64,000 bases of DNA from Paenibacillus guangzhouensis (GTDB lineage Bacteria; Bacillota; Bacilli; Paenibacillales; Paenibacillaceae), in assembly GCF_009363075.1 (NCBI RefSeq), contig NZ_CP045293.1, forward strand, positions 6,300,001-6,364,000. Direction: 5' to 3'. Below, piece after piece: positions 39,012 through 55,405 of the stretch. Position numbers and translations under genes: made by a program. The first letter of the stretch is position 1. The number at the start of each line of letters is the position of its first letter. Under the pieces are notes generated by a model. That model worked only from the letters and a program-made list of their open reading frames with translations. It did not search any database and was not told the origin of the DNA.

Positions 39012-39914
39012 GTGGATGTGATGAACATAGGTCTTGTCGGTACGGATTCCTCTCATGCCGTTGCATTTACGAAGCTGCTGAGCGATCTAACCGACGCGAA
39101 TCACGTGCCAGGAGGGAAGGTTATAGCAGCTTTTTCAGGCGGATCCATCGATTTCCCGCTTAGCGCAGATCGGGTAGAGGGCTTTATGGCGACGCTGGTA
39201 AGCGAGTTCGGCGTTCGGAGAGTGCAGACGCCTGAAGAAGTTGCTGAAGCCTGCGACGCCATATTGCTAACATCCGCAGACGGCCGGGTCCATTTGGATC
39301 AATTCCGGCGAATCGCGCCATACGGCAAACCGGTCTTTATCGATAAGCCGTTAGCGTTAACTAGTAGGGATGCCGATGAAATCTTTCGGATCGCCCGGCA
39401 GCATCAGGTTCCGTTCATGAGCAGTTCAGCTTTACGATATGTCCAGCCAATTGCTGACGAGTTAGAACTGAGAGGCGCTACGGCGGTCACTGGCGCTGAC
39501 GTCATAGGCCCTCTGGCTGTGGAACCTACGCAATCCTATTATTTTTGGTATGGCATTCATTCGGTAGAGCTGCTGTATGCCCTGATGGGTAGAGGCTGCT
39601 CAGAAGTCCAGGTAACCACGACGGACGCCTATGATCTCATCACTGCGACTTGGGAGGACGGGCGGTTGGGGACGGTCAAGCTCAGCCGCTTGCCAGAGAC
39701 ACCCTTCAGCGCCATCATCCACCGGGAGGGACAGAGCTCGGCAGTCGAGATAGACCTGGTTCGAAAGCCTCTTTATGCCGGTTTGCTAGAGCAGATCATC
39801 AGGCTGTTCCACACGCAAATCCCTCCGCTGGATTGGGTAGAGACCTTGGAAGTTATCCGTTTCGTGGAGGCGGCAGAGGAGAGCAGGAGATCGGGGCGTC
39901 CTGTGCGTTTATAA
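39012..39914 (+). CDS. Gfo/Idh/MocA-family oxidoreductase
   Basis: NAD(P)-dependent sugar dehydrogenase of 300 residues, shorter than the usual 330-390. The Rossmann start is MNIGLVGTDSSHAVAFTKLL, and the family EKP motif appears as PVFIDKPLAL. The C-terminal half holds GIHSVELLYALMG, with the usual catalytic His region. GTG 39012 follows GGGGAG by 7 bases; ATG 39021 is the alternative. Last gene before the importer promoter. Confidence 0.85.
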   Translation: MDVMNIGLVGTDSSHAVAFTKLLSDLTDANHVPGGKVIAAFSGGSIDFPLSADRVEGFMATLVSEFGVRRVQTPEEVAEACDAILLTSADGRVHLDQFRRIAPYGKPVFIDKPLALTSRDADEIFRIARQHQVPFMSSSALRYVQPIADELELRGATAVTGADVIGPLAVEPTQSYYFWYGIHSVELLYALMGRGCSEVQVTTTDAYDLITATWEDGRLGTVKLSRLPETPFSAIIHREGQSSAVEIDLVRKPLYAGLLEQIIRLFHTQIPPLDWVETLEVIRFVEAAEESRRSGRPVRL

Positions 39915-40019
39915 AATCGAGCATTTTCCACCACTTTAGCAATTTCCACACCCGAAAATGCTTGATATATAAGGGTTTTTCTGAATTTCTATCATCATAT
40001 GAACCGAAAAATCACGATA

Positions 40020-40063
40020 AATGAAAACGCTTCATTTACGGAATTTGATGCCCCGTCTATCAT
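40020..40063 (+). promoter_or_regulatory. promoter with cre-like site for the importer operon
   Basis: TTTACG (40035-40040) and TATCAT (40058-40063) are spaced 17 bases. Abutting the -35 is ATGAAAACGCTTCAT (40020-40034), which fits the catabolite-responsive element consensus WTGNAANCGNWNNCW at all but one fixed position. This suggests CcpA control of the operon starting at 40131. Confidence 0.5.
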
Positions 40064-40130
40064 TTGAATTGTCCGAACGAACGCTTCGGGCGAGGGGGAA
40101 AAATCACAGATTACAAGGGGAGGTACACAC

Positions 40131-41747
40131 ATGTCAAAAAGGATTCTCAGCATGGCGCTTGTCCTGACGCTGGCGGGTTCGCTGCTCGCTGCATGCGGCT
40201 CGGGAAGCGACAACAAGAATGAGAAAGCTTCAGATGGAGGAGCGAATGCTCCAAGCAATACGGTGGTGGAAGATACTTCGAAACAATATGGCGATACGGG
40301 TGGTCTAAAACTTCCGCTCGTCGATAAGCCGACGAAGATCACTTGGATGGTCGTGAGCGAGACGCCGCTGAACGATAAGCTGGTGGCGAAGGAAATCGAG
40401 AAACGCACGGGGATCACCGTCGATTTCCAGAATTATTCTTCGGCGACGTTCCAAGACAAACTTCGGTTGATCGTCGCATCGGGTAAGCTTCCGGATATTT
40501 TCCACGGACTTAAACCGGCTGAGCTGAAGAAAATCGGTCAACAAAAAGCGGTCGTAGCTATCAACGACTACGTCGATATGCTGCCGAACTTCAAAAAATT
40601 GTATGTCGATGAGAATCCATGGGTTGCCAATTCGTTCGGTGATGAGAATAACAAGCTTTATTCATGGCCGATTCATAATATGAACCGCGACGTGAACCAC
40701 GGCATGATGTATCGTAAAGATATTTTTGATAAAAACAATATTCCGGAATGGACCAATACGGAAGAGTTCTATCAGGCGCTGAAGAAATTAAAAGAAATCT
40801 ATCCGGATTCCTATCCGATGGCTTCCAAGACCAAAGAAAATATTTTTAGCGATCTTGCTTACGGCTGGGGCATCGGCGGCTTGAGCTACCCTGCTTATTA
40901 TGCTGAGAAAGATAAAACATGGAAATTCGCAGGCACACAGCCGGAGTATAAAGAAATGCTCGATTTCCTGAAAAAGCTGTATAACGAAGGCTTGCTGGAC
41001 CAAGAATTCCTGACCGATACAAGTGAATCTTGGACGTCCAAAATGACGACGGGTAAATCATTCGTAACATGGGATTGGATCGGACGTCTGGATCTGTTCT
41101 ACAACCAAGTCAGCGCGCAAAATCCGGAATACAACCTGCGTTATGGCAATCCGGTCGGGCCTACGGGCAATATCCGTACGCTGCCGAGAATCGATGCGGA
41201 TTTCGGGATCACGGTTGCTAATAACGCGAATAAAGAAGCTGCACTCAAATTGCTCGACTATTTGACGAGTCCATCGGGTTCAGAACTGATTACGCTTGGC
41301 GTGGAGGGCGTCAACTTCAACTTCGATGACAAAGGGAAACCGGTCTATCCGGAGCTCAAAGACCTTGCAACCGTAGAGATCAAAGCATTGGAAGAGCATT
41401 ACGGTATGTGGGTAGAGGGCATGTATCTGAATCCGGATCATCGCTCCGTCTACTACAACTACACAGAGAAAGAACAAGAGGCGCAGGACAAGATTGTCTC
41501 TGCCAAGAAATTCGAGCCGCTGGATCCGGTGCTCAATCTAACGGAGGACGAAATTGCAACCGTTGCCGAACTTCAGACCTCGATTATGAAATCGCAGAAT
41601 GAGTTTAATGCGAAGTATATCTTGAACAAGAGTTATGGCGACAAGGAATGGAATGATTGGTTGGTAACAGCTGAGAAGATGGGTGCAGCTCAATATGCAG
41701 ACGTGTATAACCAGGCTCAAAAACGTTATGATGCGAACCAAAAATAG
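40131..41747 (+). CDS. LplA-type extracellular sugar-binding lipoprotein
   Basis: ABC-importer solute-binding protein of 538 residues. The lipoprotein signal is MSKRILSMALVLTLAGSLLAAC with lipobox LLAAC. The mature part has the large-lobed fold of LplA-type binding proteins (KITWMVVSETPLNDKLVAKE near the start, LRLIVASGKLPDIF). Members bind oligosaccharides outside the cell. AGGGGAGG precedes the ATG. First gene of a roughly 14-kb operon. A hairpin after it may keep its mRNA at higher level than the permeases. Confidence 0.92.
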   Translation: MSKRILSMALVLTLAGSLLAACGSGSDNKNEKASDGGANAPSNTVVEDTSKQYGDTGGLKLPLVDKPTKITWMVVSETPLNDKLVAKEIEKRTGITVDFQNYSSATFQDKLRLIVASGKLPDIFHGLKPAELKKIGQQKAVVAINDYVDMLPNFKKLYVDENPWVANSFGDENNKLYSWPIHNMNRDVNHGMMYRKDIFDKNNIPEWTNTEEFYQALKKLKEIYPDSYPMASKTKENIFSDLAYGWGIGGLSYPAYYAEKDKTWKFAGTQPEYKEMLDFLKKLYNEGLLDQEFLTDTSESWTSKMTTGKSFVTWDWIGRLDLFYNQVSAQNPEYNLRYGNPVGPTGNIRTLPRIDADFGITVANNANKEAALKLLDYLTSPSGSELITLGVEGVNFNFDDKGKPVYPELKDLATVEIKALEEHYGMWVEGMYLNPDHRSVYYNYTEKEQEAQDKIVSAKKFEPLDPVLNLTEDEIATVAELQTSIMKSQNEFNAKYILNKSYGDKEWNDWLVTAEKMGAAQYADVYNQAQKRYDANQK

Positions 41748-41770
41748 ATAAATTTACGATGATTGAAGAG

Positions 41771-41814
41771 GGTGAATGGCGCGAAGGACTTGTAATTCCA
41801 GCGTGCCATTCACC
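41771..41814 (+). repeat. intra-operon hairpin between binding protein and permease
   Basis: GGTGAATGGC (41771-41780) pairs perfectly with GCCATTCACC (41805-41814), with CG pairs inside. No T tract, so it is more likely an mRNA-processing or stability element than a terminator. Confidence 0.7.
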
Positions 41815-41835
41815 AGCATCCAGGAGGGAAGAAAC

Positions 41836-42813
41836 GTGCCAAACCCTAACACGGAGAAGATCCTTACAAGGCATAAGCCATCGCTTGCGTCACGGATTTC
41901 CGTCTCGCTGATCGGGACGCTGAAGCATATGAAACGGGACAGACAGTTATTGGTTCTCTTTCTGCCATGCCTCATCTTTTATATTGTTTTCAGGTACGGG
42001 CCGATGTTCGGCTTAACGATTGCGTTCAAGGACTATAACGTATTCGAAGGCATTTTGGGCAGCAAATGGGTCGGTCTTAAGCATTTCATCAAGTTTTTCT
42101 CAAGCAATGATTTTTGGCTGCTGTTCAGAAACACGCTGGCACTAGGATTTTTCTCATTGATCTTCGGATTTCCGGTTCCAATTCTTTTGGCGATCATGCT
42201 GAATGAACTTCGGGTGAAATGGATGAGAAAATCAATTCAGACGCTGACGTATTTGCCGGCATTTTTGTCCGTTGTCATTATTAGCAGCATGGTGATCGAC
42301 TTTTTGTCACCAAGCAGCGGCTTGATCAACAAGCTGATGGCCGCGCTAGGGTTTGAGAAAATTTACTTTTTGATCATGCCGGAATGGTTCCGAACCATTT
42401 ATGTCGCGTCGGATATTTGGGCGAACATGGGCTATGAAGCAATCATCTATCTCGCTGCGATCGCAGGCATTAGCCCGACGCTGTACGAAGCGGCCAGGGT
42501 CGATGGATGCAGCAGGCTTCGGAGTCTGTGGTACATTACGATCCCAAGTCTCATGCCGACGATTCTCATTATGTTCATTTTGAAAACGGGGAACATGCTT
42601 CGGATCGGATATGAGAAAGTGTTGCTGCTCTACACGCCGACGACGTACGAAGTAGCGGATGTATTCTCTACTTATGTATACAGAAAAGGATTGCTTGAAT
42701 CCAATTACAGCTATGCTGCCGCTGTTGGCATGTTCGAAGCGTTAATCGCCATGATTATGCTGCTGTCGGCAAACTTCATAAGCAGAAAGGCTGGAGGTAA
42801 GGGGCTATGGTAG
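41836..42813 (+). CDS. LplB-type ABC sugar permease
   Basis: Integral membrane permease of 325 residues with six spans. The cytosolic EAA loop reads YEAARVDGCSRLRSLWYITIP (in part). The N-terminus is basic (KHMKRDRQ) before the first span LLVLFLPCLIFYIVF. GTG 41836 has AGGAGGG about 9 bases upstream; the frame is open from 41776 but the lipoprotein-permease hairpin lies there. Overlaps the second permease by 7 bases. No ATPase gene is nearby, so a shared MsmK-like ATPase is expected (inference). Confidence 0.9.
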   Translation: MPNPNTEKILTRHKPSLASRISVSLIGTLKHMKRDRQLLVLFLPCLIFYIVFRYGPMFGLTIAFKDYNVFEGILGSKWVGLKHFIKFFSSNDFWLLFRNTLALGFFSLIFGFPVPILLAIMLNELRVKWMRKSIQTLTYLPAFLSVVIISSMVIDFLSPSSGLINKLMAALGFEKIYFLIMPEWFRTIYVASDIWANMGYEAIIYLAAIAGISPTLYEAARVDGCSRLRSLWYITIPSLMPTILIMFILKTGNMLRIGYEKVLLLYTPTTYEVADVFSTYVYRKGLLESNYSYAAAVGMFEALIAMIMLLSANFISRKAGGKGLW

Positions 42814-43670
42814 GAGAATCCAAGCTTAATCTGTTCGGAGTCATCAACGCCCTGATCCTATGCTGCATTGGACTGATGACGGTCTATCCGATCATTTATA
42901 TTTTCTCGATATCGATCAGCGATACGGCTTCCGTTGTTCAGGGGAAAGTCACGTTGCTACCGCGAGGCATTAACTTTGATGCTTACTTGGAGGTTCTCAA
43001 GGACAAACGGATACCGAGAGCGTACCTGAATACGATTTTTTATACGGGATTCGGGACCTTTATCAACTTGTTGTTGACTGCGATCGCGGCGTATCCGTTG
43101 TCCCGTCCAGATTTCTTCTGGCGTAAATATTGGATGATCGGGATCGTGCTCACGATGTTCCTCAATCCGGGCATCATTCCGAATTATCTAATCGTACAAG
43201 GGCTGGGACTTACCGATACCGTGTGGGCGCTCGTCATTCCAAATGCGATCTGGACGATGGAGCTTATTATTCTGAAGAGCTTCTATGAGAGCATGTCTTC
43301 GCAGGTCCGCGAATCGGCATTGATCGACGGGGCCTCGGAATACAGGATTCTGTTCAACATCGTCATTCCGCTATCCAAACCGGCGCTCGCGTCGATCGGG
43401 CTCTTCTATTTCATGGGACACTGGAACAGCTTCTTCCTGCCGATGATCTATCTAACAGATTCAAGCATGTATCCGCTGCAGGTCGTTCTACGGGATATGC
43501 TCATCTTCGATGATGGCGCCAAGACAGGATTGGTCGATGCGGCGGCACTCGCGCCTCAAGCGAAGAAGAATGCAACGATCGTATTGTCGATGATCCCTGT
43601 CTTATTGATGTATCCGTTTGCCCAAAAGTACTTTGCGAAAGGAATTATGTTAGGTTCCGAGAAAGGGTGA
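42807..43670 (+). CDS. LplC-type ABC sugar permease
   Basis: Second permease of the importer, 287 residues and six spans. The family N-terminus VINALILCCIGLMTVYPIIYI and the EAA loop ESALIDGASEYRILFNIVIPLSKPALAS (in part) are visible, with C-terminal YFAKGIMLGSEKG. Start ATG 42807 overlaps the first permease end. Followed 46 bases later by the membrane AraC-type regulator, the typical order in Paenibacillus. Confidence 0.9.
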   Translation: MVGESKLNLFGVINALILCCIGLMTVYPIIYIFSISISDTASVVQGKVTLLPRGINFDAYLEVLKDKRIPRAYLNTIFYTGFGTFINLLLTAIAAYPLSRPDFFWRKYWMIGIVLTMFLNPGIIPNYLIVQGLGLTDTVWALVIPNAIWTMELIILKSFYESMSSQVRESALIDGASEYRILFNIVIPLSKPALASIGLFYFMGHWNSFFLPMIYLTDSSMYPLQVVLRDMLIFDDGAKTGLVDAAALAPQAKKNATIVLSMIPVLLMYPFAQKYFAKGIMLGSEKG

Positions 43671-43716
43671 CTCATGTATAATTGGATAAACAACAATGAG
43701 AAAGGATGGCTACGAC

Positions 43717-45960
43717 TTGAAGCGTTTATTTACGAATACGGGTATCGTGCAAATTTTTTGTTCGCTGCTCCTAGTCATCGGCATCATGTATGTATCCAAT
43801 TATATTGTCTATAAGAACTCTATCTCCGGGATCTACGAGAAGGTCGCGCAGAACAACAATCTTGCGGTCAAAACGATGATTCAGTCCTTCGACGACAGCT
43901 TTCGGTCGGTCAACAACATCATCCATGCCATTCACGGGCTTCCTTACAGCAGCCTGGAATCGGAAGAAGACGGGCGTATTGACATGGCCAAGGTATATAC
44001 GATGCAGGACAGCATTTCCACACTTGTCTCCTCCGTGGATTTCATCGAGGAAGTGATCGTATTCTACGACGATATGGATCTCGCCATTACCTCCATCGGA
44101 ACGAGCAGCCTCAACCAATTGTTCGATAAGAAATACAAGCATGATCTGTATAACGAGAACTATTGGCGCACGTACGTGAAGGGGAAGCACGGCTTCAAGG
44201 TGATGCCCGGACAATATTTCAAGGTTGCAACGGATGCATCGTGGCAGCGCAAGAAATTGATGGTCGCTATCGCCGGAAATAAGATCCGTATCTCGAACAA
44301 GAACATCATTATTCTCATGGATGAGACGGCTCTGCTCAAGCATCTGAATCAGAAGATGATACCGGGCGCTTCGCTGATCGTGCTCGATCAAGACCGCAGC
44401 GTGGTCATGAGCACGGATGCGAGCACCGATTTATCGGGCGTGATGGACGAGGTTTATTTCAATGCGTCCGATGAAGGGTCGTTGACGAAGGAAGATTATC
44501 AATACAACTTCTACAAGTCGGAATTCAACGATTTTGTGTATATCAACAAAGTGCCGTACCAGTTCCAGAATATCGATTCCGTCATCAGTGCCAATGAGAT
44601 GATTATGATCTCGGCCATCATCAGTGCGATCCTGTTGTCTGTGCTGCTCAGCATTTATTTGAACAGGCCGGTCAAGAAGATCATTCGTCAGCTTGGCGGC
44701 ACCAGCAGGGGAAATGATTTCCGCAAAATATTGAGCGGTGTCGTGAAAATGCAAATGGAGATCGATGAGACGAAGCAGCAATTGAAGGTAGCGGAGTCAG
44801 AAGCGCGTCGAAGCTTATTCCTGCAGGCTGTCGATGAATACGCTTACGCTGCCGATCCTGATCTGCAGCCGCAGAGCATCTATAGCGATCCGGTGCGCAG
44901 CAAATATTTCGCCATCACGATGGTGCATTTGGATCCGAAGGATAAAGAGCAGCAGCCGATGTTACCGGTGGAGAAGATCATCGAGGTTCTGCATCAAGTT
45001 CTGCAGAAGGTAAGCGACGATGTCCATGTGTTCTATGACAAGAACCTGCACTTCATAACGCTCGTCGGCATGGAGCAGCCGAATGATCGGTCCCTGCTGT
45101 TGAAGCGCTTGAAAGGGATGTTCGCTCAGCTGGAACAGGAGGAGCTGCAAGGGTATTCGGTGTGGGCGAGCGTGAGCAAGCTGTACACTGCCGAACTGGT
45201 GAACTATAAGCCGGCCTATCGCAGTGCGATGAATGGCTTGTTATACCGGGCCGTGAACGAGTCGTCTCATGTGCTGGATGTGGAGAAGATTCATTACGGA
45301 TGGAGCCTGTATTTCCCGTTCGACCGCATTGAGAAGCTGTCCAACTACATGGCGAACGGCAAGCTGCAGGAGGCCAAAGAGATCATCTCCGAGACGCTCC
45401 GGGAGAACGCGAATCGCAATGTTCATCATCATCAGATGGGGCATATCGCCAAAACGATGTTCCTGTACATGCTGCGGCATGCGAGCGTAACGGCCAATGC
45501 AGATGATGAAATGTATAAGCTGGAGCAGCGGTTCCTGCACAGGATCGATTTCGCCCATGACTATCTGGATATCGAGCAAGCGCTGATCGAGGCGGCGAAG
45601 CATATTGCCAAGCACAGCAAGCAGGAGGAGACGAACCGACTCAATCCGAACTTCATTTCGCAGTACATCGAGCTGCACTATATGGAGAATTTATATCTGG
45701 ATCATATTGCGGAGATTGTGGAGACGTCGCCGAAATATTTTTCGAGTTATTTTAAAAAGACGTTCGGGATCAACTACGTGGAGTATCTCAATAAGGTGAG
45801 ACTGTCGCATGCCAAAGAATTGCTGAAGGACAGTTCCTTGTCGATTAGCGAAATCGGAGAGAAGACGGGATATCTGAATTCTTCTACCTTCACGACGACA
45901 TTCAAAAAGTATTACGGCATTTCACCGAGCGAATATCGTAAACAAAATTCGAGCGAATAA
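43717..45960 (+). CDS. membrane-bound AraC-type transcriptional regulator with Cache-like sensor
   Basis: Regulator of 747 residues. First membrane span about residues 9-28, an extracytoplasmic sensor to about 285 (dCache-like layout, not certain), second span at about 290-312 (MIMISAIISAILLSVLLSIY), a cytosolic middle, and two AraC helix-turn-helix motifs at the C-terminus (LYLDHIAEIVETSPKYFSSYFKKTFG and LSISEIGEKTGYLNSSTFTTTFKKYYG in part). It probably senses a sugar outside and activates the operon. TTG 43717 with AGAAAGGATGG upstream is preferred over ATG 43696, which has no ribosome site. Confidence 0.88.
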   Translation: MKRLFTNTGIVQIFCSLLLVIGIMYVSNYIVYKNSISGIYEKVAQNNNLAVKTMIQSFDDSFRSVNNIIHAIHGLPYSSLESEEDGRIDMAKVYTMQDSISTLVSSVDFIEEVIVFYDDMDLAITSIGTSSLNQLFDKKYKHDLYNENYWRTYVKGKHGFKVMPGQYFKVATDASWQRKKLMVAIAGNKIRISNKNIIILMDETALLKHLNQKMIPGASLIVLDQDRSVVMSTDASTDLSGVMDEVYFNASDEGSLTKEDYQYNFYKSEFNDFVYINKVPYQFQNIDSVISANEMIMISAIISAILLSVLLSIYLNRPVKKIIRQLGGTSRGNDFRKILSGVVKMQMEIDETKQQLKVAESEARRSLFLQAVDEYAYAADPDLQPQSIYSDPVRSKYFAITMVHLDPKDKEQQPMLPVEKIIEVLHQVLQKVSDDVHVFYDKNLHFITLVGMEQPNDRSLLLKRLKGMFAQLEQEELQGYSVWASVSKLYTAELVNYKPAYRSAMNGLLYRAVNESSHVLDVEKIHYGWSLYFPFDRIEKLSNYMANGKLQEAKEIISETLRENANRNVHHHQMGHIAKTMFLYMLRHASVTANADDEMYKLEQRFLHRIDFAHDYLDIEQALIEAAKHIAKHSKQEETNRLNPNFISQYIELHYMENLYLDHIAEIVETSPKYFSSYFKKTFGINYVEYLNKVRLSHAKELLKDSSLSISEIGEKTGYLNSSTFTTTFKKYYGISPSEYRKQNSSE

Positions 45961-45977
45961 GTTGGAGTGACGACGTG

Positions 45978-46973
45978 ATGAAGACGATTGCAACACAACA
46001 TGGAAAAATAATCATTGCGGAGAAAGAGAAGCCGGCATTGCTGAACGGACACGTACTGATCCGGACGACGTACTCGGCAATTAGTCCGGGCACGGAAATG
46101 ATCTTCGTCCGGAAAGCCTCGGATCAGCTCGCAACGCTTGGCTATAATGCGGTCGGTGTGGTCGAGCGGGTAGGAGAGGGTGTGGAGCATATTCAGGTTG
46201 GCCAGCTGGTCGCTTGTTATGGCGCGCCTTATGTCCACCATGCGGAATGGCTGGCAGTTCCGGCGAATTTGGTCGCCGTCGTGCCGGATCACGTTGATCC
46301 GCAGGAGGCTGCCTTTGCCGGTCTTGGCGCGATTGCGATTCATGCGCTTCGTACGGCGGATTTGCGGTTCGGCGAGTCGGTCATTGTCGTCGGGCTCGGC
46401 ATTCTCGGCAACCTCATCACGCAGATTGCGGGTGCGGCTGCATACCGAACCGTAGGTCTCGATGTCAGAGGCGACCGGGTCGCGATGCTGCAAGAGCAGG
46501 GATTCACGCACATGTATCAGGACCAAGCGGAGATGGAGGAGCGGCTCAAGGAGGCGGTCGGGCGGTTCGGGGCGGATGCCGTCCTGCACTGTGCCAGCGG
46601 TCCAGGGGAGCAGCTTATCAATAGCTCGATGGGATGGATTCGTGATCGCGGGAAAATCGTCATTGTCGGCGATTTGACGGCCGAGTTCTCCAGGGAGCTC
46701 ATGTTCGGGCGGGAAGCGCAGGTGCTGATATCGCGCGCAGGCGGTCCTGGACGGTATGACGCGCAGTATGAGCGGGAGAATCGGGATTATCCGATCGGCT
46801 ATGTCCGCTGGACGGAGGGCCGCAACGTCGAGGAATACATTCGTTTATTGGCGGAGGGACGCATCTCGATCAAGAAGCTCATCACGAATGTGTATGCGGT
46901 CGACGATGCTGCAAAGGCCTATGAGAATTATCGACAGCCAACAGAGACGATCGCGACCGTCATCAAATACTAG
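45978..46973 (+). CDS. medium-chain dehydrogenase/reductase (zinc-binding-dehydrogenase family)
   Basis: Oxidoreductase of 331 residues. The GroES-like half opens LNGHVLIRTTYSAISPGTEM, and the NAD(P) site reads VIVVGLGILGNLITQIAG. The classical zinc-ligand cysteines of alcohol dehydrogenases are missing, so a zinc-independent or altered site is likely. GTG 45975 or ATG 45978 both fit TTGGAGTGA upstream. It is in the importer operon, and probably oxidises or reduces a derivative of the imported sugar. Confidence 0.82.
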   Translation: MKTIATQHGKIIIAEKEKPALLNGHVLIRTTYSAISPGTEMIFVRKASDQLATLGYNAVGVVERVGEGVEHIQVGQLVACYGAPYVHHAEWLAVPANLVAVVPDHVDPQEAAFAGLGAIAIHALRTADLRFGESVIVVGLGILGNLITQIAGAAAYRTVGLDVRGDRVAMLQEQGFTHMYQDQAEMEERLKEAVGRFGADAVLHCASGPGEQLINSSMGWIRDRGKIVIVGDLTAEFSRELMFGREAQVLISRAGGPGRYDAQYERENRDYPIGYVRWTEGRNVEEYIRLLAEGRISIKKLITNVYAVDDAAKAYENYRQPTETIATVIKY

Positions 46974-47012
46974 ATAAGAGAGTTCACGCTTCTATAGCAC
47001 CGGGAGGGCTAG

Positions 47013-48218
47013 ATGTTCATGACAAGAGAGCAGCCAGAAATTCGAAGCATCACGAACCGCGCTGAATTGGAAGCCGTATACGATGTGCTCGGCGACGCAT
47101 TTCCTATTGGGAGAGATTTCTTCCGACAGCGCATGGAACATGATTCAACCTATGATCTATCCACGACCTGGATCGCCGCGCAGGGGCCGGATATTGCATC
47201 TACTGTGCAGCTGTTCCCTTTCATCGGCCGTGTGGACGATGCAGCGGTGAACATCGGAGGGATCGGCAGCGTGGCGACGGTTGCCGCCTATCGGGGACAG
47301 GGGCATTGCAGGCACATGCTGCACGATATCACGGCATGGATGGAGGAGCAGGAATATGACCTTTCCTTGCTATTTGCCGTGATCAACCCGTTCTATGAGA
47401 AGGCCGGTTGGAGTACCGTCCCGGAGACGATGTACGAACTGGACCTCGCAGGGGTGACGACCGGCAGCAATGATAGCTACGAGATCGTTCCGTTCGATCC
47501 GTCCGATACGGATGTCGTTGCCAGCATTTACGAGCAATTTAACGAGCATCGAACCGGTACGGTCATTCGCCCATCCAGCTATTGGCTTGATCGGCTGCAT
47601 TGGCCGAAATGGCGGTCGACGACTTGCCTGCTCGCGAAGCGGGAAGGGGTTGTGGTTGCTTACGGCCATATCACCAAACCGGAGGAGGACGGAACCGTCT
47701 ATCTCGATGAATTATGTTATCGCAAGGGCGAGGAGGGCGCAGCTATCCCGTTGTTCTATGCACTGGCCGAGCAGCGGCCGGAAGCGAAGTGTATGCTGGC
47801 TAATCTTCCCGCCGACCATATACTCGCCGAACATTTACTGGTACAGGGTGCCGTGAAGAAGACGCTAACGTACATGATGTGGAAGATCATCCGGTTTCAG
47901 CTGCTGCTGGCGAAGCTGGTTCCCGTCTTCCAGCGCAGGCTGCAGCATCATGGAGCACTTGCAGATCAGCCATTGCTTATCGAATGGGAATGCGCAGGGC
48001 AAAAAGCCTATTTTCATGCCTTGGATGGGCAAGTTGCTGTCGCCGCTGTTCCGCGCGAAGGAAGTGAATACGTACGCATCAGCATGACACAGCAGGAATT
48101 CATGCGTCTGCTGCTGCATGGGATTGACGAAACCGCTCTGGATGAGCAGCATTCGCTTGTGCTCGAAGCGCTATTTCCGAAGCAAAACACCGTTTTCTAC
48201 CTGATGGATCGATTTTAA
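47013..48218 (+). CDS. GNAT-family acetyltransferase (Eis-like)
   Basis: A 401-residue protein of Eis layout: an N-terminal GNAT domain (IGGIGSVATVAAYRGQGHCRHML holds the acetyl-CoA loop), a second GNAT-like part from about 150, and a C-terminal sterol-carrier-like domain from about 300. It transfers acetyl groups to amines; the natural acceptor is unknown. GGGAGGGC precedes the ATG. It lies in the importer operon, 21 bases ahead of the cohesin protein gene, which is an unusual partner. Confidence 0.85.
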   Translation: MFMTREQPEIRSITNRAELEAVYDVLGDAFPIGRDFFRQRMEHDSTYDLSTTWIAAQGPDIASTVQLFPFIGRVDDAAVNIGGIGSVATVAAYRGQGHCRHMLHDITAWMEEQEYDLSLLFAVINPFYEKAGWSTVPETMYELDLAGVTTGSNDSYEIVPFDPSDTDVVASIYEQFNEHRTGTVIRPSSYWLDRLHWPKWRSTTCLLAKREGVVVAYGHITKPEEDGTVYLDELCYRKGEEGAAIPLFYALAEQRPEAKCMLANLPADHILAEHLLVQGAVKKTLTYMMWKIIRFQLLLAKLVPVFQRRLQHHGALADQPLLIEWECAGQKAYFHALDGQVAVAAVPREGSEYVRISMTQQEFMRLLLHGIDETALDEQHSLVLEALFPKQNTVFYLMDRF

Positions 48219-48239
48219 CCGAAGAAAGGAGAAATAAGG

Positions 48240-49892
48240 ATGAAAAAGATGATTTTCACCCTATGCCTGATTTTGTTCAGTTCTGCGTTCTTCACCATGG
48301 GAAGTGCAGACGTAAAGGCAGCTGAAGGTGCACAGATTACAATCAGCAGCCCATCGAACAGCGTGCGTATCGGGGATACGTTCAAGCTGCAAGTGAGCGG
48401 AGAAGGGTTCAATGATCTATTCGGCGTTGAGGTTGCGTTAACCTATGATGCCCAGGCGCTGAAGGTGCAAGGTGTTGCAGCTGGTGAGGCATACGATGCC
48501 TTCGATGCCTATACGATCAATGCCAGTGAGGGGAAGCTGTTCCTGCCGCTTGTAAGGAAGCAGTTGCAGTCTACCCCGCAGGCGACAGTCCGTCTAGCTG
48601 AGATTACATTCCTAGCGCAGCAAGTGAAAGACGCGGTGATCACAATCCAGAGTGTTAAAGCTGTGAGCAGCGAAAGGCTCATCAATGCCCAAGGATACAA
48701 AGATTTGAAATCGCTTACAACCGGGATGGGTGACGCGGTTACGGTTAAAATTGCAAAGCAGGACAGTACGGCGCCAGGGGGGACGCCAGGAGGGAACGGA
48801 CCTAGTCAACCATCAACGCCGTCAACATCCACAAATCTGACTGAGCGTCTGAATGCCGTCTTGAAGGAAAAGGATGCGGTTCGGGCCGCAGAGATGCTGC
48901 AAGCGCTGCTGAACGGGATGACATCGGAGCCGGCCGCTGCGGATAAGGAAGCACTGCTGAAGGCTGCGGCATCGATTGTTAAGGATCTTTCCCAAGTTGC
49001 TGTGAGCCAAGATGGGACGGGAAAAGATGCGGTCTATGCCATTTCTGCGGACGATGTGCGTCAACGTGATGCGTTACTTCACAGCGTTCAAGCTTCACTG
49101 TCCAAATGGAATATGAATGCTCCACAAATCTCGCAGGCCCAGCTGAAGGCAGTAATGGTCTATACACTGGCTGGTCGGGATGCCAGCAAGCTCGGCGTAT
49201 ATCGATATAACGAGAATGCCGGAACATGGGAATATGTACGGGGAGCCGTTCATCAGATCGATGCCGCGACATTCACGATCGGTGTGAAGCAGGCGGGGAA
49301 ATACCGTATCCAGGAATACGTCAAGACCTATACAGATACATCCCGTATTTATGAGGAGGCTCGGTATGCGATCGACGTATTAACGGCAAGACATATCGTG
49401 CAAGGCACATCGGAGACGTTATTCACTCCGGAGAGACCAGTGACCCGCGCCGAATTCTCCACCATGATCGTGAACGCGCTTGCCTTGGATCAGCTAGCTG
49501 CGCAAGGTGGCACGTCTGGGACCGCCTATGCTGACGTTGCAGCGGATGCGTGGTATTCCCCATCGATTAAGACGCTGCGTGAGCTTCATATCATCAACGG
49601 ATTTGAAGATGGTACCTTCAGGCCGAATGATCAAGTGACGCGTGAGCAGATGGTTGTTATTGCGATGAATGCATGGAAGGCCTTGAAGCCTGTGCCGGAC
49701 AGCACCTTGGGATCTGGCGAGAAGTTCGCGGATGACGCAGCAATCAGCGGCTGGGCGAAGGAAGCCGTGAGCAAGGCAAGAGGCATGAACCTCATATCGG
49801 GTACAGGACAGAACCAATTCATGCCGAAGCAGTCATCGAATCGAGCAGATACGTCTGTGTTCATTTGGAAGATGCTTCAGCAATTGAACTAA
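48240..49892 (+). CDS. SLH-anchored protein with an N-terminal cohesin-like domain (anchoring scaffoldin candidate)
   Basis: Secreted 550-residue protein. Signal peptide residues 1-27 (ending VKAAEG). A cohesin-like domain spans about 30-170 (RIGDTFKLQVSGEGF, DLFGVEVALTYDAQALKV, then VRLAEITFLAQ). A Pro/Ser/Thr/Gly linker follows near 177-198, a helical part, and a beta domain. Three SLH domains run from about 370 to 547 (IINGFEDGTFRPNDQVTRE is the clearest), binding the cell wall. Cohesin plus SLH is the layout of anchoring scaffoldins in cellulosome bacteria. GAAAGGAG precedes the ATG. The next two genes encode dockerin proteins. Confidence 0.83.
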   Translation: MKKMIFTLCLILFSSAFFTMGSADVKAAEGAQITISSPSNSVRIGDTFKLQVSGEGFNDLFGVEVALTYDAQALKVQGVAAGEAYDAFDAYTINASEGKLFLPLVRKQLQSTPQATVRLAEITFLAQQVKDAVITIQSVKAVSSERLINAQGYKDLKSLTTGMGDAVTVKIAKQDSTAPGGTPGGNGPSQPSTPSTSTNLTERLNAVLKEKDAVRAAEMLQALLNGMTSEPAAADKEALLKAAASIVKDLSQVAVSQDGTGKDAVYAISADDVRQRDALLHSVQASLSKWNMNAPQISQAQLKAVMVYTLAGRDASKLGVYRYNENAGTWEYVRGAVHQIDAATFTIGVKQAGKYRIQEYVKTYTDTSRIYEEARYAIDVLTARHIVQGTSETLFTPERPVTRAEFSTMIVNALALDQLAAQGGTSGTAYADVAADAWYSPSIKTLRELHIINGFEDGTFRPNDQVTREQMVVIAMNAWKALKPVPDSTLGSGEKFADDAAISGWAKEAVSKARGMNLISGTGQNQFMPKQSSNRADTSVFIWKMLQQLN

Positions 49893-49908
49893 GGGAGGAG
49901 AATCACAC

Positions 49909-51333
49909 ATGATAGACTCCAAATATAAAAAGGTGCGCAAAATCGCATGTATGGCGATGTTAACGGTATTGCTGGCACTGCCGTCGTTCATGATGGCTCC
50001 CGGCCCGATTCAGGCTTCTACGTCGAATCAGGAACAGCCGACGGATGGGCAAGTGGGTGAATCTACCGATCCCCAGATCGATGAGTCAGGCAATACACCG
50101 GATGATGCGCAAGTTGTAGAAGATGGTGAAGCGGCTCCGCTAGTCGAGCTAGCAGAACAGGCTGCTTCGGTGACCCAGACGGTCTATACCAATATTCCTC
50201 TCACGAACCATGACTTTGAGACGCCGCTGAATACCAATGGAACGATCCCAGGCTGGAGCATGTTTTTCGCCGCGAATGAGGCAACTTCCCATGGAATCAC
50301 ACAGGATGTGCGGTATTACGGCAGTTCGAGCCTCAAGCTTGTCGATAAGTCCAATACACTTCCGATCTATTTGCAGAGCGATCCGCGCCGAGTCACGCCA
50401 GGCTATTCGTACAACGGTTCAGCGATGATTTATATCGCGCCAAATGCGGGGAATGCAGGCGGGGCCAGTCTCGTGCTACGGTTCTACGATGAGGCAGGCA
50501 AACAGGTCAATACTGATAAGGACGGGGAGAACATCGTTCATTTAAGAAAAGTCGGAGAGTGGACGCGGGTGACCGTCACGGGGATTGCCCCAGCCAATGC
50601 GGCATATGCAAGAATGGCGGCCTCGATCTCTAACTATTTTACGGCGGAATCCGGGGCATTTTATGACGATTTCACCTTAACTTCGCCACAGGAGGAGAAG
50701 GCCCCAGGCACCCTGCACTTGCAAATGCCGACAGGGATTATCGGCAGTCAGCTCCTTGAAGCGAAGGTGATGCTGAGCCGAGGGATTGACGTTCAGACGG
50801 CATCTGGAAGCTTGGCCTATGATCCGGCGGTGCTTACGGTGATAGATGTTGCTGTAGCCGATGATTTTAATACGGGCGGGGCGGCCGAGATGCATTGGAG
50901 TGCCCAAGATCCAGGTCTGCTCACCTTCGATGTGTCGAGACCAGCAGGCGCTACCGTGAGCGGCGACAAGCAAGTCTTGAATGTGACTTTCCGATTGTCA
51001 GGAGATGCGGAGACAGCAGATGTCACGCTGTTGCAAAGCTCCGGTGTGCAGGATACGGACGGGGTTCAGAATAACAAGATGTATGTCCGCGCTGCGGATG
51101 AACGATCAAGCGCCCATGTTCGCAGAGCATCGCTGGATGTGAACGGCGACGGCAAGGTCGATCTCTATGATGTGATGGCCGTAGCCAAGCTGACAGGCCA
51201 AATGGTGACCAATGAGAACTGGAAGTACGATATCAATAACGACGGCAGAGTGGATCGGTCGGATGTTGACATGCTGACCCATGCGATCTTGTCGAAGCTG
51301 CTGAATTCGAACGAAGGAGGGCACAGTCTATGA
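49909..51333 (+). CDS. secreted CBM-like/cohesin/dockerin protein
   Basis: A 474-residue exported protein. Signal peptide about residues 1-38 (MMAPGPIQAS), then an acidic low-complexity part. A carbohydrate-binding-like module at about 90-225 (NHDFETPLNTNGTIPGWS is a CBM4/9-type start). A cohesin-like domain at about 265-395 (ASGSLAYDPAVLTVIDVAV). A dockerin at about 405-465 with two calcium loops, DVNGDGKVDLYD and DINNDGRVDRSD. Carrying both cohesin and dockerin it could link to the SLH-cohesin protein and to a further dockerin. GGGAGGAG precedes the ATG. Overlaps the next gene by 4 bases. Confidence 0.83.
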   Translation: MIDSKYKKVRKIACMAMLTVLLALPSFMMAPGPIQASTSNQEQPTDGQVGESTDPQIDESGNTPDDAQVVEDGEAAPLVELAEQAASVTQTVYTNIPLTNHDFETPLNTNGTIPGWSMFFAANEATSHGITQDVRYYGSSSLKLVDKSNTLPIYLQSDPRRVTPGYSYNGSAMIYIAPNAGNAGGASLVLRFYDEAGKQVNTDKDGENIVHLRKVGEWTRVTVTGIAPANAAYARMAASISNYFTAESGAFYDDFTLTSPQEEKAPGTLHLQMPTGIIGSQLLEAKVMLSRGIDVQTASGSLAYDPAVLTVIDVAVADDFNTGGAAEMHWSAQDPGLLTFDVSRPAGATVSGDKQVLNVTFRLSGDAETADVTLLQSSGVQDTDGVQNNKMYVRAADERSSAHVRRASLDVNGDGKVDLYDVMAVAKLTGQMVTNENWKYDINNDGRVDRSDVDMLTHAILSKLLNSNEGGHSL

Positions 51334-54300
51334 AACTGCGTGGTTGGAAGAACTGTTCGCTCGCCGTATTACTCATGGCAGCGCTGGGACTGAGCTTGTT
51401 CATGCCGCCTAGGGCGGATGCAGCAGCAGAACAAGGGAGTCCATTGTCCAAAATCAAGTTCGGCACGCCCGAAAATATGGGCTATCCGATTCGTACGGTT
51501 TCGATTAACGATGGCGTGATGGGGAAGGAAGACGGGAAGAACGTGCTGTACACCACCGCATCGACGACGCCGGCCGTATTTAACGTGATTGATGTGAAGA
51601 ATAATCAGTTGATTCGCGATTTCGAGCTGGAAGGTGTAGCCCAGTCTTGGCGACATGTCATCGCACCGGATCAGACCGTCTATATCGGTGCCATCACTTC
51701 GTCAGGCACGGGCGAGCTCTGGAGCTATTCCCCGGTGACCAAGAAGGTGCAGAAGCTGAAGGTGCTCGGAAGCGAGAAATCCGTATGGTCCATGACGACC
51801 GATCCGGACGGCAATGTCTATATCGGGACCTACGATCATGGCAAGCTGTTCCGCTACAATCCGAAGACACAGGAGCTTAAGGATTATGGCAGCTTGCTGG
51901 CAGACCACAATTATATCCGTTCCATGGCGTATCACGACGGATACATTTATGCCGGCATGGCGCTGCCGTTCGAGGTTGTGAAGGTGAATGTGGCTACAGG
52001 AGCTTCGGAAGTCATCTCCGATGCGGTGCCGGGCATTCTCGGCGTCCCCCATGAAGATCTGGAATTCGCCTATGACATGGCTGTCGTGGACAAATACCTG
52101 TTCGTGAAGGCGAGCGGCAAAGCAGGCTTGATCATGGTGTACTTCAATCTGGAGACACAGCAGTGGGAAAATAAATCGATCGGCATCGATCCGGTAAGCG
52201 GCCGGGGTGTGATGAGCTACAACCAAATTCCCGTGGCTGACGGCAAAGCTTATGTTCCTGCGCACGGCGGCATTCTGGAAGTTGACCTCGGGACGCTTCA
52301 GACGAGAAATACCGGTATCAGCTTCGCGACGTCGCTCCGAGGAGCGGCTTGGATCGATATGGGGGACCCTGAGCTAACCCCGGATCGCACCATTGTTACG
52401 ATTCAAGCGAACGGCAAATTGTCGGCGCTGGATGTGAAGAAAGGCATTCGTAAAGATATGCCGGGCGTCGCCGCCAAAGGCGGACCGCTTCCGATCCATA
52501 ACATGGAGAAGGGAACGGACGGACGCCTCTACATGTCGGCTTATCCGGGCGGCGTCGGCGGTGTGTTCGATCCGAGAACGAAGCAATCTTCGAATTTCTT
52601 GATCGGGCAGGCGGAAGGCATCGTGTCGGTTGGCAATAAGGTCTACTACGGCATCTATCCTGGCGGATATATTTATGAGGTGGACATCTCCGGCGGCAAG
52701 ATGAGCGAACCGAAGCAGCTGTTCCAGATCGGATCAGACCAAGATCGGCCTTACAAAATGGCGTATGCCGACGGCAAGCTGATCATCGGTACCATACCGG
52801 ATTATGGGCAACTAGGCGGGGCGATAACGATTTACGATTTGGTGAGCGGAGAGAAGCAAGTCTACCGCAATCTGATCAAAGATCATAGCATTATTGGGCT
52901 CGCATACAAGGATGGCAAGATTTATGGCTCGACTACGAAATCGGGCGGATTGAACACGACAATGCCAGAGAGCAATCCAGAAGTGTTCGTCTTTGATATG
53001 GCGACAACAGAAATGACGATGCATAAAGAGCTTACCGGGCTAGCAGGGCTCGGCAAACATCGCATGATCAGCGGTCTGACCTTCGGGAAAGACGGATTGC
53101 TGTGGGGCGGTGTCGATGGTATCCTGTTTGCATTAAATCCGAATGATCTGTCGATTGCGAAACAGAAAAATATCTATCCGGATGTAAAGGATTACGGCAT
53201 GTGGCGTCCATACTACTTCCGCTGGGGCGAGGATGGTCTCCTCTATGCCGGACTTGCGAATCGGATGACGGTAGTGGATCCAGACACGCTAGAGTATCGC
53301 TCGCTAACGCCAAGTAATTTCGAGATGAGCTTCATGACGCTGGCCAAGGATGCGGAAGGACAAGAGCAAATCTATTACACCGACGGCACGAAGCTGATGA
53401 TGATTCCAATCTCCGCATCGACGAGCGTGAAGCTGCCGGTGCGTAACGGATGCTTCGAAGAGCCGCTCAAGCCAGATAACAGCATTCCGGGCTGGAGCAA
53501 TGCTTATACGACAACGGTGACAGAATTTAGTCTCTCGAGCGAGCAGAGTTATTGCGGAGATCCGGGACAGAGCTTGAAGGTCGTAGACCAAGCGCAAGGT
53601 AGTGCGGGAACGGGCAGCTATCTCAGCGATCCAATCCCAGTCGTCCGCGGCGCTGAATATACGGCCGCTGCGAAGCTCTATATTGAGCAAGGACTCATTG
53701 AAGGGTCAAGAACCGATGATTCTGGCATCATACTCTATTTTTACGACAAATCCGGCAAGCAGATCAGTACAGTAGCAGGTACGGTTATTAAAGGCATGCC
53801 GCAAAAGCAATGGGTCGATATCTCTGCATCTGGTGTGGCTCCGGAGCAAGCAGCCTATGCGAGGATTGCTTTGTATTCGTCGGCATGGAACATGATGATC
53901 GGCTACTATGATCAAGTCACCTTCGAGGGACAATCGCCAGGCAGCTTGAAGTTGAAGGTTGATGGCCAAGTCGCTGTCGGGGAATCGTTCAAGGTTACCT
54001 TGCAGGCGCAAGATGTGACCGACTTGGCTGCCGTGCAGGCATCCTTGGCATTCGATCCGGCACTCTTCGAAGTCGTGGATGTGCAGATGGCTAGCAGCTT
54101 CGGTTCTGATTCCAACGCCTATCTCGGCTGGAACCAGGATCAGACGCACGGCAAGGTCAACATCATCGCTACGCTATTGGGAGCAAGGGCGCTTGGCGGC
54201 AGCGTGGACGTGGCACAGATTACGCTGAAGGCGAAGCAATTCGGAGATCCAGCGGAAATCGTGCTTACGAAGGAGTCGCTATTTGCCGACAAGAATGCAG

Positions 54301-54539
54301 ATCTGACAAAGCTGTCTTACACGCTGCCTGCAGATGTGAAGCTTGGCGTACAGTTCGCGTACGATGTAGAAGACGTGAACCAAGACCATCAAGTGAACGC
54401 ACAGGATGTCACGCTTGTTGCCCAGCAATTAGGCAAATCGCTGGAAGAAGGTAATCGCATGATGGATCTGAACGGCGATGGAAAAATCGATATCAGTGAT
54501 TTGTCGCTGGTCGTATTGAAAACGCTGGAACAGAAGTAA
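51330..54539 (+). CDS. secreted beta-propeller/CBM-like/cohesin/dockerin protein
   Basis: A 1069-residue exported protein. Signal peptide 1-32 (MPPRADAAAE). A beta-propeller-like part runs about 45-700, with many repeats of the type DGNVYIGTYDHGKLFRYNP and DGLLYAGLANRMTVVDP. A CBM-like module at about 703-870 (NGCFEEPLKPDNSIPGWS) is related to that of the upstream protein. A cohesin-like domain spans 872-1005 (QASLAFDPALFEVVDVQ). A dockerin follows at about 1011-1068 (DVNQDHQVNAQD and DLNGDGKIDISD). No catalytic residues could be assigned; a lyase or binding role for the propeller is open. Start overlaps the previous stop; last gene of the operon. Confidence 0.8.
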   Translation: MKLRGWKNCSLAVLLMAALGLSLFMPPRADAAAEQGSPLSKIKFGTPENMGYPIRTVSINDGVMGKEDGKNVLYTTASTTPAVFNVIDVKNNQLIRDFELEGVAQSWRHVIAPDQTVYIGAITSSGTGELWSYSPVTKKVQKLKVLGSEKSVWSMTTDPDGNVYIGTYDHGKLFRYNPKTQELKDYGSLLADHNYIRSMAYHDGYIYAGMALPFEVVKVNVATGASEVISDAVPGILGVPHEDLEFAYDMAVVDKYLFVKASGKAGLIMVYFNLETQQWENKSIGIDPVSGRGVMSYNQIPVADGKAYVPAHGGILEVDLGTLQTRNTGISFATSLRGAAWIDMGDPELTPDRTIVTIQANGKLSALDVKKGIRKDMPGVAAKGGPLPIHNMEKGTDGRLYMSAYPGGVGGVFDPRTKQSSNFLIGQAEGIVSVGNKVYYGIYPGGYIYEVDISGGKMSEPKQLFQIGSDQDRPYKMAYADGKLIIGTIPDYGQLGGAITIYDLVSGEKQVYRNLIKDHSIIGLAYKDGKIYGSTTKSGGLNTTMPESNPEVFVFDMATTEMTMHKELTGLAGLGKHRMISGLTFGKDGLLWGGVDGILFALNPNDLSIAKQKNIYPDVKDYGMWRPYYFRWGEDGLLYAGLANRMTVVDPDTLEYRSLTPSNFEMSFMTLAKDAEGQEQIYYTDGTKLMMIPISASTSVKLPVRNGCFEEPLKPDNSIPGWSNAYTTTVTEFSLSSEQSYCGDPGQSLKVVDQAQGSAGTGSYLSDPIPVVRGAEYTAAAKLYIEQGLIEGSRTDDSGIILYFYDKSGKQISTVAGTVIKGMPQKQWVDISASGVAPEQAAYARIALYSSAWNMMIGYYDQVTFEGQSPGSLKLKVDGQVAVGESFKVTLQAQDVTDLAAVQASLAFDPALFEVVDVQMASSFGSDSNAYLGWNQDQTHGKVNIIATLLGARALGGSVDVAQITLKAKQFGDPAEIVLTKESLFADKNADLTKLSYTLPADVKLGVQFAYDVEDVNQDHQVNAQDVTLVAQQLGKSLEEGNRMMDLNGDGKIDISDLSLVVLKTLEQK

Positions 54540-54561
54540 TAGGAACAAGGAATTTCTGAGC

Positions 54562-54610
54562 ATCTCCTCTCGGTGAACGGTGTGCGACCACTGGCCGAGG
54601 GGAGATTTTT
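54562..54610 (+). terminator. terminator of the importer/cohesin operon
   Basis: ATCTCC and CGG arms pair with CCG and GGAGAT around a long loop, with TTTTT after. It is the first terminator after position 40131. Confidence 0.75.
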
Positions 54611-54852
54611 GTGTGCTGCAGAAGCAATCGAATCCAGGTAGTTAGCATACATGGAATTGGATTGATTTGGATAGATTCAGAGTATGGAAAAAAACGACAA
54701 ACTTTTAAGCTAGCAGTGTGTATTCATCCTGAAATATGCGTGAACGTGATCTAACGAGCGAAAATAGGAGATTTCGAGAGATTCACCTCATTCATAACGC
54801 TTTCATGGTTATTTCCAGTATTTTCAGATTCTATTTACGCGATTTATTCGGT

Positions 54853-54881
54853 TTTACAAGTTGCAACGCGAGGAGTATGAT
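54853..54881 (+). promoter_or_regulatory. sigma-A promoter of the kdp leader
   Basis: TTTACA (54853-54858), a 17-base spacer and TATGAT (54876-54881). It stands about 15 bases before the first c-di-AMP aptamer. Confidence 0.65.
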
Positions 54882-54896
54882 ACGATTCATGAACAT

Positions 54897-55070
54897 TGCT
54901 GAGTCCTTGCATGAGCAAGGAGCGGGGGAACCAAATAAGTCATGAACCTGTTGTTCGTGTGAGAGCGAGCGCGGGTACATGTGGGGTGAATCCTGGGTAC
55001 AACGGTACCGAGGTAGGGTGACTCTCACCATCCGAATCCGACAGCTAACCTCGTAAGCGAATGAGAGAGG
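54897..55070 (+). promoter_or_regulatory. c-di-AMP riboswitch (ydaO/yuaA), first of two
   Basis: The conserved core is present: GAGCGGGGGAACC after a CCTTGC/GCAAGG stem, then GGGGTGAATCC, GGTAGGGTGACTCTC, and CCGAATCCGACAGCTAACC with TCGTAAGCG. These are the ydaO-type consensus blocks. It would bind cyclic di-AMP and turn the genes off. No T-tract hairpin follows directly; the second aptamer begins about 85 bases later. Confidence 0.93.
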
Positions 55071-55154
55071 ATGAAGGAAAGTGTAGATGTATGCTGGCTG
55101 TAGCAGCGAAGGCGCTGCAGCTTCGATCATGCAATTCGAAATGAACATGTCTTT

Positions 55155-55312
55155 ATCGCTGAGTCTTTGCTATAGCAAAGAGCGGGGGAACCAACGGTCG
55201 GCAGAGCTGACCATGGGGTGAATCCAAGGCACCGTCTTGTACGGCGCTAAGGTAGGGCGACTCTCTAGGCCCGAATCCGACAGCTAACCTCGTAAGCGTC
55301 TCGAGAGAGGCA
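55155..55312 (+). promoter_or_regulatory. c-di-AMP riboswitch (ydaO/yuaA), second of two
   Basis: Same consensus blocks as the first: a TCTTTGC/GCAAAGA stem, AGCGGGGGAACC, GGGGTGAATCC, GGTAGGGCGACTCTC, CCGAATCCGACAGCTAACC and TCGTAAGCG. The variable helices differ from copy one, so it is not a recent duplication of the DNA. The terminator at 55365-55405 is its likely expression platform. Confidence 0.93.
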
Positions 55313-55364
55313 ACTTGAACGTATTCAATGCACAGGTGCATGGCGATTTGCCGTGTCCTTAATT

Positions 55365-55405
55365 GAAGCCGCGATGGATAACCTCCCCCGCAGGCTTCTT
55401 TTTTT
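55365..55405 (+). terminator. conditional terminator of the kdp leader
   Basis: GAAGCC (55365-55370) pairs with GGCTTC (55393-55398), followed by seven or more T. It stands after the second aptamer and before kdpA. Confidence 0.8.

Follow-up and report, generated by a model that had tools for sequence, protein, structure and literature searches.

A putative private cohesin-dockerin surface complex encoded behind an oligosaccharide importer in Paenibacillus guangzhouensis

In the genome of Paenibacillus guangzhouensis (6.95-Mb, two contigs; labelled G000 among the genomes compared here), we followed up a window of 64,000 nucleotides (positions 6300001-6364000 of contig C1) in which nine plus-strand genes, 40131-54539, run from an LplABC-type importer (genes 1 to 3: a solute-binding lipoprotein and two permeases) through an AraC-type regulator and two enzymes (genes 4 to 6) to three cohesin-bearing surface proteins (genes 7 to 9, hereafter the trio). 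We consider it rather probable that the trio is a private, scaffold-free, SLH-anchored complex and the extracellular arm of the importer operon, in which case the nine genes would encode both halves of a glycan-acquisition system. This reading is supported by the co-occurrence of the importer with the propeller family of gene 9, the swapping of attachment modes among relatives, the conserved order of the trio, its private interfaces, its persistence in the cohesin-poor genome G032, and the presence of CsaB. The parts are known; the way in which they are combined is a variation on known systems.

The broadest association that we found ties the importer to the propeller of gene 9. Among 148 sampled Paenibacillaceae genomes, 15 hold an orthologue of the gene 1 solute-binding protein (SBP; E <= 1e-120, identity at least 60%), while gene 9 has matches in 28 and the propeller family is present in 26, G002 and G140 being excluded from the propeller count because their match is confined to the cohesin-dockerin part. 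All 15 genomes with the importer SBP hold the propeller family (hypergeometric 5.9e-14, shared ancestry uncorrected). By coordinates, SBP and propeller lie no more than 25 kb apart in 10 of these 15 and are farther apart or on separate contigs in G010, G032, G104, G128 and G137. The propeller can even stand within the importer run itself: G008, G079 and G122 share the order SDR-like gene, DHDPS-family gene, oxidoreductase, SBP, two permeases, Zn-dehydrogenase, propeller, an AraC gene precedes the dehydrogenase in G102, and in G118 the propeller follows directly after the permeases.

The mode of attachment, by comparison, is swapped between relatives. No cohesin, dockerin or SLH domain was found in the importer-run propellers of these last five genomes, where the tail carries FIMAH in G118 (L080), a sub-threshold Ig-like match in G102, and nothing that matches a family in the other three; L080 and L082-L088 are examples of propeller relatives in this state. 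A fused SLH domain ends the propeller protein in G110, G051 and one G010 gene (L091, L092, L093), and a dockerin alone is seen in the second G118 propeller (second gene of L081). The window presents a fourth mode, a cohesin-dockerin propeller beside a separate SLH-cohesin gene. L037 (P. ihumii, short partial match) was dropped. The first-pass annotation of this stretch, which proposed a single nine-gene device, would by its own account be refuted by otherwise conserved loci lacking the last three genes; such importer loci do exist (L080, L082, L084, L085, L086), which refutes it in part, as other genomes keep importer and trio together.

Relatives of gene 8 (E <= 1e-40) were detected in 7 of 295 genomes (G000, G001, G032, G137, G280, G292 and, at 34%, G151), with G292 and Paenibacillus sp. 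D2_2 (NZ_CP133605.1) counted as one genome. A close trio is found in seven genomes, the window and the metagenome-assembled genome Fux382_bin13 included, and has the same gene order in all of them. Each of the seven also holds the importer SBP, and in five (G000, G001, Fux382, G280, D2_2) the importer adjoins the trio. In D2_2, the genes for the AraC regulator and the propeller protein are broken into several open reading frames (ORFs). The proposed union of importer, membrane AraC regulator and surface proteins in one gene run thus holds for the window and four of the six other close-trio genomes. G151 carries a diverged trio in the same order (identities 29, 33 and 46%), the gene 9 of which is without the jelly-roll. 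D2_2 and G280 lack genes 5 and 6 at the corresponding place, so these two are not needed for the assembly. With the trio unlinked in G032 and G137 as well, an obligate nine-gene device is ruled out: linkage of the importer to the cohesin trio is not obligatory, the two being adjacent in five genomes, unlinked in two, and represented in a third, G151, by the diverged trio without the importer.

The binding modules of the trio are set apart from those of the remaining genome. The gene 7, gene 8 and gene 9 cohesins each group with their orthologues in a clade of their own (support 0.998, 0.996 and 0.96); their mean identity to the 26 main cohesins of the genome is 18, 18 and 22%, and they are 16-20% identical to each other, compared with a mean of 39% for the main cohesins among themselves. 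Similarly, the dockerins of genes 8 and 9 have mean identities of 35 and 38% to the main dockerins and are 34% identical to each other, whereas the main dockerins average 59% among themselves. The whole genome of G032 gives just two PF00963 matches, one of which is the gene 9 cohesin, and the trio can therefore hardly depend on a wider network. From these comparisons, the simplest reading is that the three cohesins and two dockerins form a set sufficient in itself. CsaB, which is needed for SLH attachment, is encoded in the genome.

An alternative is that genes 7 to 9 are ordinary, exchangeable members of a genome-wide network, alongside the other 27 cohesin-dockerin proteins, and stand behind an importer by chance. 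Such a network does have many parts. PF00963 gives 36 cohesin domains in this genome and PF00404 28 dockerins (matches also occur in 1 and 2 of 14 control genomes, respectively); with our own models, we count 35 cohesin proteins, 29 with a dockerin and 6 with SLH, plus one dockerin-only protein. The linker between cohesin and dockerin measures 11-16 residues in 24 of the 29, 87-92 in four and 170 in one, and genes 8 and 9 share the layout, with cohesin and dockerin at the C-terminus and linkers of 16 and 15 residues. Importer adjacency is also cheap, given 93 LplC-like permease matches in the genome, 92 of them homologues of gene 3 located elsewhere. Against chance placement stand the distance of the trio modules from the main group, the persistence of the trio in G032, its conserved order and its adjacency to the importer in five of seven genomes, and we regard this alternative as unlikely.

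Outside the window, a Pfam scan of 32 cohesin proteins and of the dockerin-only protein (border-cut genes scanned in pieces, the first part of one left out) found a glycoside hydrolase (GH) or polysaccharide lyase (PL) domain in 15 of the 32, namely GH2 (2), GH20 (2), GH29, GH31, GH43, GH84, GH85, GH95, GH101 (2), GHL10 and PL8 (2). No multi-cohesin primary scaffoldin was found; the genome maximum is two PF00963 domains per protein (L024), and genes 7 to 9 have one each. L024 (G000:C1:3744393-3750003) combines this SLH plus two-cohesin ORF with an overlapping ORF for an X2-dockerin protein, which among the dockerin proteins found is the only one lacking a cohesin. At L021 (G000:C1:2536050-2546257), a second SLH-cohesin gene adjoins two cohesin-dockerin genes (GH101, GH20), which repeats the arrangement of one anchor and two partners, here from the main group. 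At L013 (657579-660761) and L023 (3665008-3670380), a FIVAR domain sits between cohesin and dockerin and stretches a linker of otherwise almost constant length to ~90 residues. The family as a whole is no stranger to these modules: of 148 sampled Paenibacillaceae genomes, 93 contain PF00963, and among their 19 genera 17 do, so that cohesins outside clostridia are not unusual. The first-pass view of cellulosome parts as mainly clostridial is not supported, all the more with the cohesin complement of this genome.

How might the trio work? On the inner side would be the LplABC-type importer, the membrane-spanning AraC regulator and, encoded upstream, enzymes acting on an unusual sugar; on the outer side, the three secreted proteins would assemble without a multi-cohesin scaffold. 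The gene 7 SLH-cohesin protein would be held in the wall, with the products of genes 8 and 9 docking onto it and probably also onto each other head-to-tail, so that the complex would display a pair of jelly-roll domains for binding and a double propeller, the latter binding or cutting a polymer beside the importer. A more specific version, which we hold only tentatively, is a strict chain: the gene 7 cohesin takes one dockerin, the cohesin of that protein takes the next, and a wall-anchored arm reaches over its own importer, with the same logic applying genome-wide and most surface enzymes sitting in daisy chains, not on scaffoldins. As 29 of the 30 dockerin proteins found also bear a cohesin, head-to-tail logic would account for the whole genome.

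Several observations weigh against an extracellular arm dedicated to the importer. The importer-propeller co-occurrence statistic ignores phylogeny; the distance between SBP and gene 9 is ~45 kb in G137 and ~122 kb in G032, and G151 is without the SBP at E <= 1e-60. The main cohesins do not form one clade in an arbitrarily rooted tree, and two single-chain AlphaFold models were poor (mean pLDDT 44.7 and 38.7), with no interface readable. Of 21 cohesin clusters, this one included, one lies within 5 kb of a permease (3.5 expected), 7 within 10 kb (5.6), 9 within 15 kb (7.4) and 12 within 20 kb (9.0). A general rule that the cohesin genes of this genome lie next to importers is thereby ruled out, the clusters being no nearer permeases than circularly shifted positions.

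The domains that the trio would display bear on what it does. Genes 8 and 9 fall into the monovalent adaptor class, with one cohesin, one dockerin and an N-terminal hydrophobic segment each. The gene 8 cohesin barely passes the Pfam cut-off (24.6 vs 24.1 bits), and its jelly-roll assignment rests solely on 31% similarity to the jelly-roll part of gene 9. The latter has no Pfam match of its own; it is based on CBM_4_9 in relatives and on a profile match, at positions 703-850, to the xylanase chains 2wys/2w5f. As for the propeller, seven residues (Y195, R197, Q427, Y443, Q471, R473, Y492) are invariant across 22 aligned relatives with identity to gene 9 down to 29% (alignment A1, 22 rows, L091-L093 left out). 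Pfam, NCBIfam, PDB sequence and fold searches returned generic propeller matches only, led in PDB sequence and Foldseek by Bacteroides sensor propellers with low TM-scores; GH74, PL22 and similar families, which we also considered, are not among the matches listed, which excludes none of them. Blade periodicity by autocorrelation was uninformative. The propeller appears to be a conserved family without assignment that could be catalytic.

We hold it nearly as probable as its opposite that gene 9 is an extracellular depolymerase, either a lyase or a hydrolase from a family not yet described, and that the unit works at the surface as a small machine for degradation, not as a capture device; this is compatible with the favoured explanation. 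Besides the invariant residues, this would suit the SBP of gene 1, the nearest solved chains of which are AlgQ1/AlgQ2, carriers of alginate pieces, and the SBP 5gub/5xs8. It would also suit the precedent of Paenibacillus sp. JDR-2, in which the importer has an enzyme as its SLH partner (PMC4765114). On the other side, neither gene 9 nor any of six relatives scanned has a Pfam PL or GH match, and the fold matches suit many propellers equally well. The first pass had seen a device for capture rather than degradation: no glycoside hydrolase is indeed found by Pfam, and of the traits of a classical cellulosome the unit has the SLH-cohesin anchoring protein (gene 7) and not the dockerin-borne plant-wall glycoside hydrolases, but a preference for capture is not supported, given that the gene 9 propeller could be catalytic. 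A purely binding role, with the trio an adhesion or envelope structure inherited with the operon and having no part in uptake, strikes us as improbable. It would fit the absence of any Pfam GH or PL domain from genes 7 to 9, the sensor propellers at the head of the matches and the diverged G151 trio without an importer, yet the propeller family is present in 15 of 15 importer genomes and stands within the importer run, without a cohesin, in five.

The layout of the run (Table 1) suggests that the nine genes form one transcription unit. All nine ORFs have the coordinates and strand given on first pass; with gene 2 read from the GTG at 41836, the start to which relatives point (several align from residue 21), the intergenic gaps are 88, -7, 25, 14, 39, 21, 16 and -4 bases. 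By eye, a purine-rich ribosome-binding site precedes eight of the nine starts, the exception being gene 4. A consensus scan of 38500-56500 gave 13 sites resembling promoters (19.5 expected from shuffles) and 13 resembling terminators (15.0 expected), and a few of these lie on the plus strand within the unit. Being no commoner than chance, these sites are no evidence that the unit is split. A strong hairpin follows gene 9, 22 bases past the last stop codon (-28.9 kcal/mol, z -3.6), and probably marks the 3' end; the scan missed it because it accepts short loops only. Gaps and flanking hairpins therefore support reading genes 1 to 9 as a single unit. The palindrome before gene 1 resembles a CcpA/LacI-type operator.

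Table 1. Features of the nine-gene run and its flanks (window coordinates)
Feature	Position	Strand	Basis or remark
Upstream genes: regulator, SDR-like protein, DHDPS-family protein, Gfo/Idh/MocA oxidoreductase	35485-39914	+	synteny
Hairpin between upstream oxidoreductase gene and gene 1	39916-39966	+	13-nt arms, 92% complementary; z -3.3
Perfect 8-5-8 palindrome, operator-like	40018-40038	+	adjoins weak sigma-70-like site 40035-40063 of gene 1
Gene 1, extracellular solute-binding lipoprotein (SBP_bac_1)	40131-41747	+	Pfam PF01547 1.3e-20
Gene 2, importer permease	41836-42813	+	PF00528 2.9e-9; ORF could also begin at 41776
Gene 3, importer permease	42807-43670	+	Pfam PF00528 below cut-off, 21.3 vs 26.4 bits
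Gene 4, AraC-type regulator	43696-45960	+	PF12833 2.6e-22
Gene 5, zinc-binding dehydrogenase	45975-46973	+	PF00107 1e-10
Gene 6, GNAT acetyltransferase	47013-48218	+	PF13527 8e-21
Gene 7, SLH-anchored single-cohesin protein (anchor)	48240-49892	+	PF00395 2.6e-27, PF00963 3.7e-7; orthologues align
Gene 7 cohesin domain	48342-48674	+	profile search
Gene 8, jelly-roll-like (CBM4/9-like), cohesin, dockerin	49909-51333	+	PF00404 1.1e-9, PF00963 3.1e-5
Gene 8 cohesin domain	50791-51066	+	profile search
Gene 8 dockerin	51136-51291	+	profile search
Gene 9, probable double beta-propeller, jelly-roll, cohesin, dockerin	51330-54539	+	PF00963 3.7e-14, PF00404 3.2e-9
Gene 9 probable double beta-propeller	51501-53429	+	11 full and some partial blades, low-confidence model
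Gene 9 cohesin domain	53961-54326	+	profile search
Gene 9 dockerin	54369-54512	+	profile search
Terminator-like hairpin closing the unit	54562-54606	+	12-nt arms, 92% complementary, 21-nt loop, T-rich tail

Pfam bears out the first-pass identities of the SBP, the gene 2 permease, the AraC helix-turn-helix, the Zn-dehydrogenase, the GNAT enzyme, the SLH-cohesin protein and the two cohesin-dockerin proteins. The gene 1 sequence contains LAAC, which we take to be its lipobox motif. For gene 3, the permease label is supported by NCBIfam permease models, which match at up to 3.8e-19, every one under its own cut-off, and by the 92 homologues elsewhere in the genome. Gene 4 has hydrophobic segments at 10-39 and 295-326 by hydropathy and probably possesses an external sensor part. 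No ABC ATPase was found by Pfam among the nine genes and the four upstream genes, so that genes 1 to 3 have the make-up of an LplABC-type importer, an SBP lipoprotein with two permeases and no ATPase of its own.

Those four upstream genes accompany the importer in several relatives; one encodes a protein without a Pfam or PDB match, for which SDR-like is our presumed label. In G001, G032, G110 and G280, and as seen at L042/L043, L091, L095 and L096/L097, SDH-beta-like, SDH-alpha-like and M20 genes lie between the DHDPS and oxidoreductase genes, a place where the window has none of them; the D2_2 stretch L035 begins inside an M20 gene and gives the gene order from that point only. Our guess, hinted at by the neighbouring DHDPS, SDR-like, oxidoreductase, SDH-like and M20 genes, is that the substrate could be an N-acylated amino sugar. 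Farther along the window, a kdpD-like ORF after the kdp genes (60230-62671) comprises two KdpD sensor-domain stretches and a Usp domain, with no histidine kinase domain found by Pfam at E 0.001.

If the favoured reading is right, the tie of a surface glycan protein to the cell, through fused SLH or through cohesin-dockerin and a separate anchor, would be an exchangeable part of importer operons; the comparison also points to a double-propeller family linked with one importer and catabolic gene set.

Ruminiclostridium cellulolyticum has a true multi-cohesin cellulosome, and Clostridium perfringens has cohesin/FIVAR-dockerin glycosidases that are non-cellulosomal, with cohesin and dockerin on different enzymes. 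The latter resemble the present genome in placing these modules on glycan-active enzymes, and a GH84 protein with cohesin, FIVAR and dockerin is found here too; in contrast, both modules here occupy one polypeptide, and there are SLH-cohesin anchors. In the R. cellulolyticum xyloglucan system, as far as the source describes it in the part consulted, surface enzymes joined by cohesin and dockerin supply a family-1 SBP importer that has an AraC-type regulator, a plan that the window would share, whereas its importer cluster comprises cytoplasmic enzymes and the regulator without cellulosomal proteins (PMC4780118).

For P. guangzhouensis itself, the consulted part of a 2024 paper gives 35 as the number of cohesin proteins and reports 28 monovalent adaptors and 5 SLH anchors, along with a single dockerin outside scaffoldins and at most two cohesins in any protein (PMC11557425). 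Our counts agree in the 35 cohesin proteins, the single cohesin-dockerin pairs, the SLH-cohesin anchors, the one dockerin-only protein and the maximum of two cohesins, and differ in giving 29 adaptors and 6 anchors with our own models; the general architecture is therefore already published. The word 'transporter' is absent from its main text, and neither the importer link nor the locus, the propeller or the private trio was found in the part consulted; a search of one literature collection likewise found no paper joining Paenibacillus, cohesin, SLH domain and ABC transporter. If real, the complex would offer a simple three-protein test case for one-cohesin-one-dockerin proteins without a large scaffoldin, a puzzle raised in that paper (PMC11557425).

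The union of surface proteins with an importer, which had seemed surprising in itself, has a precedent in Paenibacillus sp. JDR-2, for which the consulted part of the source describes an SLH-anchored xylanase and glucanase, ABC importer regulons and a model of vectorial uptake (PMC4765114). Both systems couple a surface-anchored protein bearing a carbohydrate-binding module with an oligosaccharide importer and regulators. In JDR-2, one polypeptide holds the SLH and a known GH domain, while here anchor and cargo are separate, presumably joined by cohesin and dockerin, and the cargo has no known GH (PMC4765114). The JDR-2 pairing of SLH-enzyme and importer is thus the closest functional model, of which the window would present a modular version, its anchor being a protein apart that is presumably reattached through cohesin and dockerin.

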